From positions 1-58,317 of the forward strand of contig JAIXKT010000024.1 of the NCBI GenBank assembly GCA_026932145.1: a stretch of DNA of 58,317 bases. Reading direction: 5' to 3'. Each line of letters begins with the position of its first letter. The first letter of the stretch is position 1. This DNA is from Bacteroidia bacterium. Its GTDB lineage: Bacteria; Bacteroidota; Bacteroidia; J057; JAIXKT01. A model generated the notes under the pieces. That model saw nothing but the letters and a program-made list of their open reading frames with translations, had not been told where the DNA came from and did not search any database. Positions 602 through 8,165 of this stretch are shown here, in pieces. The translations under genes were made by a program, and so were the position numbers.

Positions 602-1246
602 CAACAGACAAGCAAGAAGCACTGTGCATAACAAGGGTTTGCCAAAAGCGGGGCTGAAGTTCTTCGATTGAGCATTTGTGCAAGGTTCAACATTAGTAAT
701 TCTATTGAACTTTTGTGCTAAAAATCCCCGCCTTCGGCAAGCCCCAAAACGTTGAGCGACATTACGCCTGCGGCGTAGTTTTGTTCTTCGTGTTTTGCTG
801 CGCAAACACTCCCATCCAAAACAAATGTCGCTCAACGCAGCGCTTGACCTAATTTTGTCTAAGATACGCCTGGGCTTTGCGCCGGCTGCGGCTCGCACCG
901 CTCGCCGTTCCGGCTAACGTCGCCCAACAAAATACTTGACAAAATTAGATCCCGAGAAAAAAAACACCGGAATCCCAAAATAAATTTTGGTATCCTCTTT
1001 TTTTTCTCGGAACTTCGTCAAGCGCTGCGTTGCCTGCAACCGTAGGGGGACAGTGCTAACATCAAAGTTTCGGGCTGACAAACGAGCGACAGACAAATTT
1101 TCGGCAAAGCCGTTTTGCTATTCTTCGCAAAATTAAAAGAGGTGTTTGCCACCGCACAAGCCGACACAAAACACCACATTTAATTTTGCCCGACCGTACC
1201 CAAGCCCACCCGACAATTTCCGACTTCACAAAAAAAATCTGAGAAA
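602..1246. repeat. Gene-free palindrome cluster with attC-like hairpin
   Basis: No credible gene lies here. The stretch is visibly richer in G+C than the genes on both sides and is built from nested inverted repeats. Arms seen are 635-653 with 727-744 (19 bp, two mismatches and one G-T pair), 750-763 with 824-837 (14 bp, perfect), 833-848 with 1017-1032 (16 bp, perfect), 849-858 with 939-948 (10 bp, perfect), 952-964 with 998-1010 (13 bp, perfect, with a further 7-bp stem inside), and 1127-1147 with 1169-1189 (19 of 21). Such density fits integron-type recombination sites or another mobile palindromic element. Open frames in it are short and lack family features. Confidence 0.75.
626..757 (+). 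other. Candidate attC-like recombination site
   Basis: The 132-bp segment starts with GCATAAC and ends with GTTGAGC. These correspond to the R'' (RYYYAAC, one mismatch) and R' (GTTRRRY, exact) core sites of integron attC elements. Inside them are complementary arms at 635-653 and 727-744 and a second weaker stem around GGTTCAA and TTGAAC. Size, order of core sites and imperfect dyad symmetry fit attC geometry, and it lies directly behind a small single-gene unit, the macro gene. No integrase is seen in the window, so this would be a cassette-like site without its recombinase. The call is from pattern alone. Confidence 0.4.
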
Positions 1247-1298
1247 AAACTTGTCAGACTAAATTTCTTAGCTAACTTTGTCATTTATTGACAAGTTT
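1247..1298 (+). promoter_or_regulatory. Controller promoter with overlapping operator half-sites
   Basis: A near-ideal Bacteroidota promoter, TTG at 1251-1253, a 19-base spacer, and TAACTTTG at 1273-1280, lies upstream of the XRE gene. Three copies of one half-site cover it: TTGTCA at 1251-1256 on the -33 element, TTGTCA at 1278-1283 on the end of the -7 box, and TGACAA at 1289-1294 at the expected start of transcription. The outer copies extend to a perfect 10-bp inverted repeat (1247-1256 with 1289-1298). This layout suggests that the XRE protein binds here and controls its own operon, as C proteins of restriction-modification systems do. Confidence 0.65.
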
Positions 1299-1312
1299 AA
1301 ATTTACAAGCAA

Positions 1313-1639
1313 ATGAAAGCAATGTTTGGCGAATACATCAGAGAATTACGGACAGACAAGGGTTTGACCTTGACACAACTTGCATCGCAACTTGACCTTG
1401 ACTCTGCGAATTTGAGCAAAATTGAAAACGGGAAACGTGAATTTGACGAAAAACGCTTAGACAAATTGGCGACCGCTTTTAACCTTGACATTGACAAGTT
1501 GAAAACCGAATACTTTGGCGACCAATTCGCAAAGAAAATGTATGAATACAACTGTTCAACAGAAACGCTAATTGTAGCCGAAGAAAAAGTAAACTACTTG
1601 AAAAGTGTAAACGTGAAACAAGCCGAAATAAAATTCTAA
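1313..1639 (+). CDS. XRE-family helix-turn-helix regulator (controller-like)
   Basis: A 108-residue DNA-binding protein. Residues about 7-62 form a Cro/C1-type helix-turn-helix, with LTLTQLASQLDLDSANLSKIENG as the helix-turn-helix core and KRLDKLATAFNLD as the following helices. The C-terminal 40 residues are charged and not recognised. It lies two bases ahead of the methyltransferase gene and is clearly co-transcribed with it, the position of controller (C) proteins that delay endonuclease expression. Its promoter at 1247-1298 carries repeated half-sites, which supports autoregulation. The ATG at 1313 is preferred; an ATG at 1322 is possible. The protein is longer than classical C proteins (about 80 residues), so an ordinary XRE repressor is the alternative. 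Confidence 0.85.
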   Translation: MKAMFGEYIRELRTDKGLTLTQLASQLDLDSANLSKIENGKREFDEKRLDKLATAFNLDIDKLKTEYFGDQFAKKMYEYNCSTETLIVAEEKVNYLKSVNVKQAEIKF

Positions 1640-1641
1640 CT

Positions 1642-4149
1642 ATGAACAAACCTTTGACATACATAAGTTTATTCAGCAGTGCGGGAGTTGGCTGTTACGG
1701 CTTTAAACAAAACGGTTTTGAGTGTATTGCGACAAATGAGATTTTGACGAAACGCCTGAAAATTCAAGCGTTCAACAACAAGTGTAAATACGACACAGGT
1801 TATTTGGACGGAGATATTTCAACGAAAGAAATCAAAAACAAACTTTTTACTGAAATCAAAAAGTGGCAAACGGAACACAAAATTTCCGAGCCTGACATAA
1901 TCGTGGCTACACCACCTTGTCAAGGAATGTCTGTTGCAAACCACAAGAAAAATCAAGAATTGACAAGAAATTCTTTGGTTGTAGAATCAATCAAAATCAC
2001 AAAAGAAGTCAATCCTAAATTTTTCATTTTTGAAAATGTAAGAGCATTTTTAAATACAATTTGCACCGACATTGACGGAACAGAAAAAACGATTGAAGAA
2101 GCCATAAAAATAAATTTAGGCGGACACTACAACATACTTTTCAAAGTCGTAAATTTTAAAGATTATGGTTCACAATCAAGCAGAACAAGAACGCTTGTAA
2201 TTGGTGTTCGCAAAGACTTGCAGAACATTAGTCCATTTGACATTTTTCCCGAAAAACAAAAACCAAAAACGCTACGCAAACTTTTTGCAGGTTTAGAAAA
2301 CATAAATGAAATGGGAAAAATATCGAAAACCGATATTTTCCATTCATTTAGAGAATATGATGCAAAAATGTTGCGTTGGATTGAGAATTTGAAAGAAGGA
2401 CAATCGGCTTTTCAAAACACAGAAAAAGATAGAATACCGCACCAAATAAAAGACGGAAAAATCGTTATCAACGAAAGTAAAAATGGCGACAAATATGCAC
2501 GTTGGTATTGGGATAAAGAAGGTCCTTGTGTGCATACGAGAAACGATATTTTGTCAAGCCAAAATACTGTTCACCCAGCAGAAAACAGAGTTTTCAGTAT
2601 TAGAGAACTAATGCTGATGATGAGTATTCCTACAACTTTTCAATGGACACATCAATCAACAGACAAGTTGAATAAAATGAGTTTGCTTGAAAAGAAAGTG
2701 TTTTTGAAAAAAGAAGAATTAAACATTAGACATTGCATTGGCGAAGCAGTTCCGACAGGCGTTTTCAGCAACATTGCAAAAAGAATAAACGAAGTTTTAA
2801 ATCAAAAATTTCTTTCAACAACTGAAATAAACAACGTAATCAAAAAAGAAGAATTGAGCGAAACTGAAAATTTGCTTTCGTTTATCAATTCTGATTTTTC
2901 CAAGTTAGGACTTGAAAACATTTATCAAATTGCAGAATACGCAAATTCAAGTCGTCAAGAAAATTCTGCATTTTTCACACGAAAAGACATTGCATTTTCA
3001 GTTGTAAAAGATTTGCCCGAACTGAAAGGAAAAAAGAAAATCAGAATTTTAGAACCGTCTGTCGGCATTGGTAATTTCATTCCGTTGTTGGTTGAAAAAT
3101 ACGAAGATAAAGACGAAATAATTTTTGACCTTGTTGATATTGACAATAATTCTTTCGTTGTGCTGAAAAACATTTTAGCCAAATTGAAATTGCCTAAAAA
3201 GTTCAAGTTTAATTTCATCAACGCTGATTTTCTTACACACGCTTTCAAAGAAAAATACGATATTGTTGTAGGAAATCCGCCTTACAAAAAACTAACGAAC
3301 AACCAAGAATTATTATCGCTTTACAAATTCAACGTAAAAAACAATGAAACAAATAATTTGTTTTCGTTCTTCATTGAAAAAGCAATTACGTTAGGAAACT
3401 TCGTTTCTTTAATTGTTCCGAAAAGCCTAATCAATTCGCCCGAATTTAATATCACAAGAGAAATTTTGAAAGAGCAAAACCTTTTGAAAATTTGCGATTA
3501 TGGCGAGAAAGGTTTCAAAGGCGTAAAAATTGAAACAATTAGTTTGTTGCTTGAAACTTCAACTAAAAAACAAAGCGAAACTATTTTAATAGAAAGTTAC
3601 ATCACTGAAACAGTTGAAGAAAAACGGAAAAATTATTTGTTGTCTGACAAGTTCCCATATTGGTTAATTTACCGAAATAAAGAATTTGACGAAATTTCAG
3701 AGAAGATGAAATTTGATATTTTCAATAGTTTTAGAGATAGGCAAATTACAAAGCAAATTACGAAAGACAACGGAAAATACAGAGTTTTAAAATCACGCAA
3801 TGTGGGTAATAACGAAGTCAAAGAATTGGAAAATTACGACTGTTATATTGACGATACAGAAAATTTGGCTGTCGCCAAATTTCTTAATCGTGATGATGTC
3901 GTAATGATTCCGAACCTTACTTATTATCCAAGAGCGAGTTTTTTGCCCAAAAACACCATTACGGACGGTTCGGTTGCTTTATTGACTTTGAAAAATGGTA
4001 GCCGACTTCCGACAGAAAAAGATTTGGAATATTACGGTTCAAAAGAATTTGAGAAGTTTTATCGTGTTGCCCGAAATTTCGGAACACGTTCACTAAACAT
4101 TGATAATAATTCCGTTTTCTTCTTCGGGCTTTTAAAAAAATTAGAGTAA
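1642..4149 (+). CDS. Fused cytosine-C5 and adenine-N6 DNA methyltransferase
   Basis: An 835-residue protective methyltransferase with two catalytic halves. The N-terminal half is a C5-cytosine enzyme: SAM motif ISLFSSAGVGCYG at the start, catalytic TPPCQG near residue 90, ENV near 131, QSSRTR near 178, and GEAVP (motif X) near 366. The C-terminal half is an N6-adenine enzyme: SAM motif ILEPSVGIGNF near 468 and catalytic NPPY near 545, followed by a target-recognition-like region. Such a fusion suits an asymmetric site with a methylated C on one strand and a methylated A on the other. From memory, the Helicobacter pylori HpyAV system (HP0054, annotated adenine/cytosine methyltransferase) has the same layout and length. 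It is co-transcribed with the controller and the endonuclease, whose ATG directly follows its stop. Confidence 0.93.
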   Translation: MNKPLTYISLFSSAGVGCYGFKQNGFECIATNEILTKRLKIQAFNNKCKYDTGYLDGDISTKEIKNKLFTEIKKWQTEHKISEPDIIVATPPCQGMSVANHKKNQELTRNSLVVESIKITKEVNPKFFIFENVRAFLNTICTDIDGTEKTIEEAIKINLGGHYNILFKVVNFKDYGSQSSRTRTLVIGVRKDLQNISPFDIFPEKQKPKTLRKLFAGLENINEMGKISKTDIFHSFREYDAKMLRWIENLKEGQSAFQNTEKDRIPHQIKDGKIVINESKNGDKYARWYWDKEGPCVHTRNDILSSQNTVHPAENRVFSIRELMLMMSIPTTFQWTHQSTDKLNKMSLLEKKVFLKKEELNIRHCIGEAVPTGVFSNIAKRINEVLNQKFLSTTEINNVIKKEELSETENLLSFINSDFSKLGLENIYQIAEYANSSRQENSAFFTRKDIAFSVVKDLPELKGKKKIRILEPSVGIGNFIPLLVEKYEDKDEIIFDLVDIDNNSFVVLKNILAKLKLPKKFKFNFINADFLTHAFKEKYDIVVGNPPYKKLTNNQELLSLYKFNVKNNETNNLFSFFIEKAITLGNFVSLIVPKSLINSPEFNITREILKEQNLLKICDYGEKGFKGVKIETISLLLETSTKKQSETILIESYITETVEEKRKNYLLSDKFPYWLIYRNKEFDEISEKMKFDIFNSFRDRQITKQITKDNGKYRVLKSRNVGNNEVKELENYDCYIDDTENLAVAKFLNRDDVVMIPNLTYYPRASFLPKNTITDGSVALLTLKNGSRLPTEKDLEYYGSKEFEKFYRVARNFGTRSLNIDNNSVFFFGLLKKLE

Positions 4150-5349
4150 ATGACAGAAATTGAAAAGTTGCTAAAAAGCAAAAATTACGACATCAGAGTT
4201 ACAAATGATGCAAGGTTTATGGACCAAAAATGTACGCCAGACGTGGTTTGTATCATTGCGGATTGTGTTTTGAATTTGCGAGAAAGTGAACCGCAAAAAG
4301 AATTTATTGTGCAAGACATTTGGGATTCTCAATACTTCATCAAAAACGTAAAAGCAATTTTCAATAAGCCGTCAGCAACTAATCCAACAACAAGAAGCGA
4401 ATACGATAAATTCATTCAGCAACCGCTACGACTTTTGGCCTATGCAGGAATTTTGGATATTGAAAAAAGAGGAACAACGAATTATTACAAAGTTGCAAAT
4501 CTTACAGTTTTGGAATATGTTTCATTGAAAGATAGAAATGCTTACAATTTCTTGTATCAATACTTTGTAAAAGTAATGTCGGACAGCGGACAAATAAAGT
4601 TCTTTGAAGAATACAAAAGCAAGTATGAAAAAGGCAAATTGACAAAAACGGATTTTGAAGATTTGCAAAGACGTTTTATTAAATTCATCATCGGAAATAC
4701 TGCAATCAATGGCGAAGTTGAAGTAAGACGTATTTTCCCGAAATTGCTAAATGTTTACGCTTGTGAAAACAATTTGCCGGGTTCAATCAAAGGACGAATG
4801 TCCGAAAATGAATTTTACTATACGGACTTAATGTATAATCGTAAAAATTGGCGTGATTTATCAAAAGATAAAACCGTTTCACGACAAGAAGCAAATGCAG
4901 ACAGCGAACAAAATGTTGTTGTTGATACAGCGTTCAACGCTTATTTGGTGCAAAAAGCAATGAACCAAATTAGAAAAATGTATTCTGAAAGTGAAGTGAA
5001 AGACCAATGGGCAAATGGCGATGCTACGCAAGTTCATCACATTTTCCCGAAAAGCAAATTTCCGCAACTTGCTCACTATTTGGAAAATTTAATCAAATTG
5101 ACAGCAACGCAACATTACACAAAAGCACACCCAAACAACAAGACAGATGCGATAAACTTAGATTATCAACTTGTTTGCTTACTTGCAAAATCGGACAGCA
5201 TTGAAAAATCATTGAAGAAAAACGAATTATATTACCGAAAAGAATCTTTTGTTTATTGCATAAACACAGGACTTGAACAAGACTTGAAAGCGGATTTAAC
5301 TTTCAGACAAATCAAAACAGAATTGGCGACAATTTATAACGACTTATAA
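4150..5349 (+). CDS. HNH-family restriction endonuclease (type II, probably IIS)
   Basis: A 399-residue protein whose C-terminal third holds an HNH (beta-beta-alpha metal) nuclease motif: QVHHIFPKSKF with the paired His at residues 296-297, Asn at 313 in LENLIKL, and His at 322 in TQHYTKAH. The N-terminal 250 residues are not recognised by eye; site recognition probably lies there. The gene starts immediately at the stop of the fused methyltransferase (TAAATG), so translation is probably coupled. With the methyltransferase it forms a complete restriction-modification pair, similar in kind to the HNH type IIS enzymes HpyAV and MnlI. The cut site cannot be read from sequence. All HNH residues are present, so it looks functional. 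Confidence 0.88.
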   Translation: MTEIEKLLKSKNYDIRVTNDARFMDQKCTPDVVCIIADCVLNLRESEPQKEFIVQDIWDSQYFIKNVKAIFNKPSATNPTTRSEYDKFIQQPLRLLAYAGILDIEKRGTTNYYKVANLTVLEYVSLKDRNAYNFLYQYFVKVMSDSGQIKFFEEYKSKYEKGKLTKTDFEDLQRRFIKFIIGNTAINGEVEVRRIFPKLLNVYACENNLPGSIKGRMSENEFYYTDLMYNRKNWRDLSKDKTVSRQEANADSEQNVVVDTAFNAYLVQKAMNQIRKMYSESEVKDQWANGDATQVHHIFPKSKFPQLAHYLENLIKLTATQHYTKAHPNNKTDAINLDYQLVCLLAKSDSIEKSLKKNELYYRKESFVYCINTGLEQDLKADLTFRQIKTELATIYNDL

Positions 5350-6494: not shown

Positions 6495-8165
6495 ATGCCA
6501 GAAATAAATAACACATTCAAAATTGGTTTATGTATGGCAGGTGCAATTTCTGCGGGTGCTTATACTGCTGGAGCTATTGATTATTTGATTGAAGCACTTG
6601 AAGAATGGCAAAAACGAAAAGATAATAACGAATCTAATACGCCAAGGCATAACGTTGAAATTCCTATCATTGGCGGTGCATCTGCAGGTGGAATGACAGG
6701 GATAATAGCAGCCTCTGCGTTACAGGATGAGATTGAACCCGTAAAGGAGTTGTTAGGCGACATAATGAAACAACAACCAAGCAATAAATTTTATCACACT
6801 TGGGTAGATTTAACAGATGATAAAATGCTAAGTATCCTTTTAAATACTGATGATATTACCAAAAACGGATTACAATCAGTTTTAAATGCAGACTTTATTG
6901 ATAAGGTTGCAGAAAGAGCGGTAAAGGTATCAAACGCATCTACTGTTGATAGAAAGTATATTGCCAACAATTTAAAAGTATTTGTAACGCTTTCCAATCT
7001 TGAGGGAATGGATTTTTCTATAGCATTCAGATCTAATTCATATAAGGATAAATATGTTGTGAGTAGCTATAATGATTATGCTTATTTCAAACTTTGCGCA
7101 TCAGAAAATGACTACACTAATGACGGATGGATTCCACTGAACTTTAAGACTAATTTGAATGTTGATGTTGTAAAAAATGCAGCGATGGCTACAGGTGCAT
7201 TTCCTGTAGGATTGAAAGCAAGAATACTAAGTCGCGGCATGAAATATATGAATGACCTTGAATGGTTTAAACACATTACAAGAGATGCAAACAATCCATT
7301 CAAGAAAGACCCATACAATACAGTGAATGTTGATGGAGGTATGATAAATAATGAGCCGTTTGATAAAATCAGAGAACTTCTTCTTGGTTCAATCACTCCC
7401 CAAAAATTGCAAGATGTTCAAGATTATGATAAGTTTGATAGCACAGTATTAATGATTGACCCATTCCCAAGTGAAACAGAGAAGTTTGACGATAGCACCA
7501 AGCTGACTACAATAATAGGAAACACACTTGGAGTATTGGTGGGGCAAGCACGTTTAAAGTCTTCTCTTTTGATAGATGCAATGGATTCAAAGAAAGCAGG
7601 GCAATTCTTAATTGCTCCTGTCAGATATGAAAAGAAAGCGGGGGGAGAGGAAATATCCATTGAAGGAAAGAAAGCTATAGCTTGCGGCTCCTTAGACGGC
7701 TTTGGCGGCTTTATCAGTAAGGAATTTAGAATTCATGATTACTTTTTAGGTAGAGCCAATTGCGAAAAATTTCTCCGTGACCATTTCACAGTTCCTCAAA
7801 GTACGGCAAATAAAATCTTTATGAACGGATATTCAGGAATTACAGACAAAACACAATTTACATCAAAAACTGATGGAGGGTTGCAGATAATACCAATTTT
7901 TACAGAAAGGCGACTTTCGCTTTATATGCCTAAATTTTCCAATGGAAAAGAATATCCTGCTGTTACTTTTAACGAAATTAGTTCTTACAGAAAAATGCTA
8001 AAAGCAAGGGTTGAAAAAGTTATACTTAATATTTCCAAGTACAGCAGAACGCAACGTATGCTGTTGTGGATTGGGGCTAAAGTAGTGCTAAACGCTAAAA
8101 TCGCAGATGCGGTAATTGACTCGGTAATAGAATCACTGGAAGAACATAAACTCATCAGAAAATAA
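6495..8165 (+). CDS. Patatin-like phospholipase
   Basis: A 556-residue cytosolic hydrolase expected to cleave membrane phospholipid acyl esters. The patatin core is complete: glycine-rich oxyanion loop AGAISAGAYTAG at residues 15-26, nucleophile Ser63 in GASAGG, and the dyad Asp280 in VDGGMINNEP. The C-terminal third contains FGGFISKEFRIHDYFLGR, a pattern seen in longer patatin-like proteins with a DUF3376-type tail. The gene lies 81 bases after the 220-residue unknown and shares its base composition. Patatins act as membrane-damaging effectors in several defence systems, so its place in this island makes a defence role plausible, but a general lipase cannot be excluded. No signal peptide is present. 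Confidence 0.85.
   Translation: MPEINNTFKIGLCMAGAISAGAYTAGAIDYLIEALEEWQKRKDNNESNTPRHNVEIPIIGGASAGGMTGIIAASALQDEIEPVKELLGDIMKQQPSNKFYHTWVDLTDDKMLSILLNTDDITKNGLQSVLNADFIDKVAERAVKVSNASTVDRKYIANNLKVFVTLSNLEGMDFSIAFRSNSYKDKYVVSSYNDYAYFKLCASENDYTNDGWIPLNFKTNLNVDVVKNAAMATGAFPVGLKARILSRGMKYMNDLEWFKHITRDANNPFKKDPYNTVNVDGGMINNEPFDKIRELLLGSITPQKLQDVQDYDKFDSTVLMIDPFPSETEKFDDSTKLTTIIGNTLGVLVGQARLKSSLLIDAMDSKKAGQFLIAPVRYEKKAGGEEISIEGKKAIACGSLDGFGGFISKEFRIHDYFLGRANCEKFLRDHFTVPQSTANKIFMNGYSGITDKTQFTSKTDGGLQIIPIFTERRLSLYMPKFSNGKEYPAVTFNEISSYRKMLKARVEKVILNISKYSRTQRMLLWIGAKVVLNAKIADAVIDSVIESLEEHKLIRK

Follow-up and report, generated by a model that had tools for sequence, protein, structure and literature searches.

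Layout of the locus

The region from 602 to 1246 lies between a gene for a 195-aa protein and a restriction-modification operon, close to the start of the window, by which we mean the whole stretch of 58,317 nucleotides that was analysed (Table 1). The upstream gene is present as initially annotated, while its proposed identity as a macro-domain gene finds a weak match that stays under the cut-off; the restriction-modification operon downstream was corroborated by PADLOC (MTase_II at 733 bits and REase_II at 326 bits). Counting only exact inverted repeats whose arms reach 11 nt or more and whose gaps do not exceed 220 nt, five are packed between them, compared with a mean of 0.06 in dinucleotide shuffles of the same sequence (0 of 1,000 reached five) and at most two in each of 176 other segments of 645 bp. 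The palindromes are genuine and well above chance level. At least six inverted repeats with arms of 10-21 bp had been reported for these 0.65 kb together with the cores GCATAAC (626-632), GTTGAGC (751-757) and GCTCAAC (830-836); the repeats were found in place and all three cores are exact.

The coordinates of the initial annotation cover three things: an attC-type site (626-757), an ORF-less cassette that we call E1 (752-1029), and, from 1030, the leader of the next cassette. The chaining of core sites that it described holds and reflects a cassette inserted in the crossover. Rfam gave nothing at gathering score, with chance-level matches only. Positions 1-60 of the window and the end of contig C66 (L021) have a putative insertion-sequence end in common (GCGCGTTGCATAACCTC...), and this shared insertion-sequence-like end probably broke the assembly inside the array.

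Table 1. Positions of the features in the window and on contig C15 of the same genome.
Feature	Position	Strand	Basis or remark
Upstream cassette gene, 195 aa	14..601	+	ORF list; weak macro-domain match (PF01661, E 0.034)
Upstream cassette 3' tail, with R'' core GCATAAC at 626-632	616..632	+	sequence
attC-type site	626..757	+	covariance model R1, 142 bits (training member); stem covariation
attC parts	R'' 626-632; L'' arm 635-653; variable loop; L' arm 726-744	+	
attC parts, right end	spacer 745-750; crossover G751^T752; R' core 751-757	+	
Stem within 626-757	635-653/726-744		
E1, ORF-less cassette of 278 bp at the attC crossover	752..1029	+	21 gap-free copies
E1 hairpin H1	751..836	+	head GTTGAGCGACATT (751-763) pairs with tail AATGTCGCTCAAC (824-836); inverted repeat I4, fold
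R'' core of E1, within H1	830-836	+	
E1 hairpin H2	837..1029	+	GCAGCGCTTGAC (837-848) pairs with GTCAAGCGCTGC (1017-1028); I2, I7, I8, fold
Nested stems of H2	846-859/938-951; 952-964/998-1010	+	crossover G1029^T1030
Inverted repeat I4	750-763/824-837		14/14 paired
Inverted repeat	833-848/1017-1032		16/16 paired
Inverted repeat	846-859/938-951		13/14 paired
Inverted repeat	952-964/998-1010		13/13 paired
Inverted repeat	1127-1147/1169-1189		19/21 paired
Restriction-modification cassette	1030..5349	+	head TTGCCTGCAACCGTA
Genes of this cassette	HTH 1313-1639; methyltransferase 1642-4149; restriction enzyme 4150-5349	+	
Leader element with hairpin 1127-1147/1169-1189	1095..1215	+	recurs in other cassettes' leaders
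C15 tyrosine recombinase, 384 aa	C15 5437-6591	-	divergent from attI and cassettes
C15 attI	C15 6679^6680		first cassette starts at 6680
C15 attCs	C15 8410-8539 and 9522-9654	+	R1
C15 second cassette	between the two attCs	+	head GTTACCACCAATTTT, tail AAAACTGGTGGTAAC

A family of attC-type sites

A search with region 602-1246 in its own genome gave 82 matches, most of them on contigs C20, C26, C53, C59, C14 and C60, which are gene arrays of mostly uniform orientation. The copies of its 626-757 part are sites of about 132 bp with a similarity of only about 70%, and a covariance model (R1), built from own-genome sites together with plasmid sites, found more than 45 attC sites in the contigs of this genome. 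With the same model, the rest of the window gave no second attC and nothing below E 1, and the controls, 69 kb drawn from other phyla and from the XerC/XerD-like loci together, gave no match at E values up to 5.

Compensatory double changes affect 12 of 16 stem pairs in the aligned sites, and stem covariation scores 0.54 compared with 0.16 in shuffles and at most 0.09 with slid partners. Alignments, covariation and junctions together reveal the R''/R' cores, the L''/L' arms and the crossover of an attC, which is always G^TT, with G^AT ahead of a second ORF-less unit, E2. The central spacer of gene-cassette attCs is asymmetric (2 nt at 633-634 versus 6 nt at 745-750). Folding favors the bottom-strand stem in 38 of 45 sites (mean -17.7 versus -15.7 kcal/mol, for the stem only), and the consensus stem has symmetric 1x1 mismatches and no bulge, so that the extrahelical bases by which canonical integrons select the bottom strand are absent. 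Judged by these sequence features, 626-757 is a genuine attC-type site that closes one cassette.

Cassette ends and cargo

The heads of gene cassettes share the motif TTA(G/T)nGGCAAnnnTA, with A at position 10 in 27/27. Within this genome, each head pairs with the tail of its own cassette in blocks of 10 and 4 nt, separated by an A.C position (tails like 616-632 show this 10+4 pattern), and pairing with the tails of other cassettes is at background. Across six other genomes, 48 of 56 cassettes pair at 8 or more of 10 positions, compared with 14% of mismatched pairs, and A.C stands at position 10 in 34 of these 48. Cassette ends are self-complementary, as expected of an integron, and their pairing extends over about 15 nt; known cassettes pair over 9-11 nt (PMC2727003).

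The restriction-modification cassette has no matching tail and no closing attC in the window, as if the distal end of the array had been truncated here. The element in its leader has matches in 23 of 295 genomes of the class, several of them about 55-70 bp after an attC crossover, and perhaps serves cassette expression. Cargo in this genome includes a type III restriction system and SIR2-HerA within one 8.4-kb cassette, besides other restriction systems, OLD-like and YhcG nucleases, dihydropteroate synthase (DHPS), a lanthionine-synthetase-like protein and T9SS-tailed proteins, whose tails assign the host to Bacteroidota. The E1 copy of the window is part of a cassette array that spans several contigs and in which restriction and defence genes abound. 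The DHPS gene in the array on C26 (L011:11974-12786; Pterin_bind, E 7e-62) adjoins pieces of an IS1595-type transposase and could be of the sulfonamide-resistance type.

The ORF-less cassettes E1 and E2

At least 21 copies of E1 are present in the genome, 21 of them gap-free and 97.5-100% identical, and each begins either at an attC crossover, G^TT, or where another E1 or E2 ends. The lack of a second genomic copy had been set beforehand as a refutation of mobility; more than 20 further copies exist. A search for the same palindromes at other loci and in related genomes had been proposed; E1 recurs at other loci of its own genome, and among the relatives and the 295 class genomes it was found in this genome only. 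Searches with the exact E1 core returned six unrelated chance matches in GTDB contigs and none in viral contigs.

The head-tail pairing of E1 (GTTGAGCGACATT with AATGTCGCTCAAC) fits the cassette rule, but without the mismatch. H2 abuts the cores directly, with no central spacer, and R1 does not recognise E1's own site as attC; known attCs need a central spacer for efficient recombination (PMC2727003). E2, a unit of about 120 bp (ATGTGCAAAAG...GCGAGCCCG), behaves in the same way. All copies of both lie at the crossover, including spacer-free runs such as E1-E1 and E1-E2-E1-E2-E1; tandem E1-E1 units are spaced exactly 278 bp apart, and E1 copies are always in array orientation. The 45 own-genome attC sites are followed by E1 in 23 cases, by E2 in two and by neither in 20, where a gene cassette or an unresolved junction comes next. 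Half-copies of E1 on C20 were rejected as biology and attributed to scaffold gaps (runs of N). Degraded E1 copies lie outside the arrays on C9 (L024) and C3 (L022), and the one on C9 starts at a G^TT where no attC lies, which fits insertion at a secondary site.

Integrase and attI

The initial annotation had considered an integron-type array without integrase; the array with a true attC-like site stands, but contig C15 supplies an integrase, an attI and cassettes. C15 has the layout of an integron, in which the integrase is divergent from attI, two cassettes and two attCs. The window contig shows no integrase near its array, as in a CALIN; contigs of this assembly break at repeats, and C15 belongs to the same genome. 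The two contigs are unjoined in the assembly (66 contigs, 3% contamination), and their link is the shared site family.

A search of this genome for canonical IntI returned sub-threshold recombinases only. The C15 recombinase scores best against XerA_Arch (217 bits versus a cut-off of 220) and reaches 188 bits versus a cut-off of 265 for the integron integrase family TIGR02249. In an alignment with VchIntIA (2a3v), 68 residues of the latter face 24 in the C15 enzyme, so the IntI-specific additional domain (patch III region) is absent. The C15 enzyme has an extra N-terminal region in which F36, W54 and W61 are invariant; Pfam hardly detects this region (DUF5710, E 0.002, 3 of 22 members). The catalytic set is conserved. 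Ten orthologs have the attI motif TTGCGyATATTTnnnGAG^TTA in common, placed next to the integrase and just before the first cassette, with variable content beyond. Tyrosine recombinases on C9 and C56 were dropped as XerC/XerD-like loci without attC sites, and the one on C19 as the partner of an IS91 transposase. C19 holds two near-identical tyrosine recombinase copies about 17.5 kb apart (L048:6698-8765 and L049), and the L048 copy is followed by an IS91-family transposase, with R1 attC sites nearby.

Distribution in other genomes

The R1 attC family was found in 186 of the 295 class genomes and, in a sample of the phylum, in 66 of 148, while canonical IntI exceeded the cut-off in a single class genome (G159) that has no R1 match. 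About 15 other class genomes encode orthologs of the C15 integrase, at about 50-66% identity, and many of these orthologs have attC arrays beside them (R1, E down to 1e-26); the ortholog loci of G088, G199 and G298 showed no attC within the flank fetched. Co-occurrence of recombinase and attC amounts to 69/79 versus 117/216 (p 6e-8 over the 295 genomes, not corrected for relatedness).

In genome G246 (contig C2), more than 25 attC sites on a single strand form an array that ends at a divergent integrase, and in G209, a single-contig genome, integrase and array have the same orientation. G246 and G259 belong to different families and have identical integrases (1050/1050 nt) and identical attI sites, possibly due to a mis-binned contig. 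A comparison of insertion sites, proposed at the outset to reveal mobility, gave this result: the two sequences match up to and including attI and part ways no more than 3 bases from the crossover, where the shared TTA is part of the common head motif. Among 17 IMG/VR loci chosen by integrase sequence alone (L130-L146), 11 contain a total of 19 attC matches, all 19 upstream of and divergent from the integrase; either phages carry the system or these virus-labelled contigs are cellular.

tet(X) and plasmids

BLAST searches of plasmids with the site matched DNA just 3' of the tigecycline-resistance gene tet(X), at 77-79%, in Bacteroides, Empedobacter and Riemerella plasmids. On p1681-tetX, G^TTATGTGCC and GGCACATAAC plus an attC form the boundaries of the gene, and the 3' neighbours of tet(X) differ between plasmids. 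A Tet(X) that is 99.7% identical over 388 aa is a cassette in the G246 array. By these boundaries and neighbours, tet(X) is a cassette of this system, both on plasmids and within an array. The Chryseobacterium plasmid NZ_CP041688.1 encodes an integrase of 44% identity, and six attC sites in the same orientation come after it. In enterobacterial tet(X4) plasmids (H20-H75), the match to the B. fragilis query is limited to its first 33 nt and stops at the R'' core, so that these plasmids seem to have lost the attC. Group II intron reverse transcriptases and IS91-plus-recombinase pairs lie in or near cassette regions of Chryseobacterium and Adhaeribacter plasmids (L128, L129, L056).

Discussion

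Region 602-1246 is very probably a cassette junction of a Bacteroidota integron-type gene-capture system comprising the attC, an inserted E1, the restriction-modification cassette and a C15-type integrase. The attC at 626-757 would close a cassette, E1 would have been inserted at G751^T752, and the restriction-modification cassette would start at 1030. The sequences show the site family, its conserved fold, the exact junctions, self-complementary ends, attI, an integrase beside arrays and the variable content after attI. The C15 recombinase, XerA/IntI-like in kind, would recombine a bottom-strand-folded attC with attI or other attCs, and the choice of strand may be set by the A.C positions, which are mismatches on the top strand and T.G pairs on the bottom strand. 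The "undescribed palindromic mobile element" of the initial annotation gives way to E1 as an ORF-less cassette within this system. E1 and E2 would spread by the same reaction, as gene-free cassettes copying themselves into junctions. If excision here used one strand only, as it does in known integrons (PMC2727003, PMC4792948), the donor copy would be kept after replication and E1 could multiply. E1 may be a parasitic cassette, or else a promoter or insulator.

The arrays might instead be ordinary CALINs that are moved by a canonical IntI in trans or have since lost it, with the C15 recombinase as an unrelated neighbour. A CALIN needs no adjacent canonical IntI, CALINs are common (PMC9668308), and one class genome does encode a canonical IntI; however, this single genome, without an R1 match, faces 186 with attC sites, and many genomes have a C15-type recombinase where the array ends, together with the common attI, which makes this reading very unlikely. 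We give hardly any credence to an assembly artefact in which scaffolding duplicated or mis-joined E1: runs of N and half copies do lie beside some C20 copies and contigs do end in E1, but the copies differ in substitutions, flanking attCs and cassette heads, and unrelated genomes, single-contig ones included, show the site family and the cassette rule as well.

For E1 itself, retention as a regulator of its neighbours, be it a promoter, terminator or insulator cassette, is conceivable if doubtful. Most tested gene-less Vibrio cassettes act as sense promoters (PMC11014356), many gene cassettes have E1 immediately ahead of them (23/45 junctions), and H1 contains a terminator-like hairpin at 761-779. 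Against this, 590-1320 contains no sigma-70-type promoter (in a scan that does not cover Bacteroidota promoters) and a terminator count near shuffle level, 20 of 45 attC sites have neither E1 nor E2 after them, and tandem and E1-E2 runs resemble spread rather than design. It is unlikely that E1 and E2, instead of being cassettes, are IS200/IS605-, REP- or MITE-like elements, transposable or hairpin in kind, with folded attCs as their targets. Their highly structured ends, high copy number, lack of an ORF and of a central spacer would suit such elements, as would the degraded pieces outside arrays and the C9 piece that begins at G^TT without attC. Yet secondary G-TT insertions are known for cassettes too, and E1 follows the cassette rule in its complementary head and tail, its G^TT at both junctions, its array orientation and its 278-bp tandem spacing.

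By its sequence features the system works like an integron, but it is set apart from the canonical IntI-defined family, where we do not place it because the integrase domain and the extrahelical bases were tested for and are absent; the variant appears to be new. On balance, we lean towards a Bacteroidota integron class of its own, with a XerA-like integrase that has an extra N-terminal domain in place of the IntI domain, which would be found in most genomes of the sampled class, supply resistance genes such as tet(X) and, here, harbor self-copying hairpin parasites of the gene-free E1 type. Such a class would have been missed because searches look for IntI. The openly accessible literature, a scope that excludes preprints and most subscription journals, yielded no description of such a system, and a prior description elsewhere is possible.

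Sedentary chromosomal integrons with IntI, such as the Vibrio superintegron, resemble this system in their integrase and attI, long and mostly same-orientation array, homogeneous attCs of about 130 bp, G^TT crossover and self-complementary cassette ends. It differs from them in an integrase without the IntI-specific domain and with an extra N-terminal one, 1x1 A.C stem mismatches where they have extrahelical bases, heads and tails that pair over about 15 nt and conserve an A.C, a 15-nt motif common to the heads, and many multi-gene cassettes. XerA-type recombinases (NF040815; PDB 4a8e, 5hxy) are the best family of the C15 integrase (PDB E 4e-40); XerA resolves dif sites, whereas the C15 enzyme sits at cassette arrays and has the N-terminal extension with invariant F, W and W. 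Like the gene-less promoter cassettes of Vibrionaceae (PMC11014356), E1 is ORF-less and lies between gene cassettes, but it is one near-clonal sequence present more than 20 times, with two hairpins and no central spacer.

Integrons are reportedly very rare in Bacteroidetes, where a single complete one, that of Salinibacter ruber, is named by IntegronFinder 2.0 (PMC9024848). An attC family with its own integrase in 186 of 295 class genomes would alter this picture. The system would offer a concrete route for tet(X), with cassette-bounded plasmid copies and a 99.7%-identical copy in an array beside an integrase, and would make it testable whether single-strand attC recombination needs the IntI domain or another domain can substitute. 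E1 and E2 would exemplify gene-free cassettes as parasites of a cassette system. A further structure in Bacteroidota, with no integrase or attI identified there, is the attC-resembling hairpin of 140 bp located 3' of the resistance gene aph(3')-IVb in Riemerella anatipestifer, for which integration independent of homology has been reported (PMC13148043).
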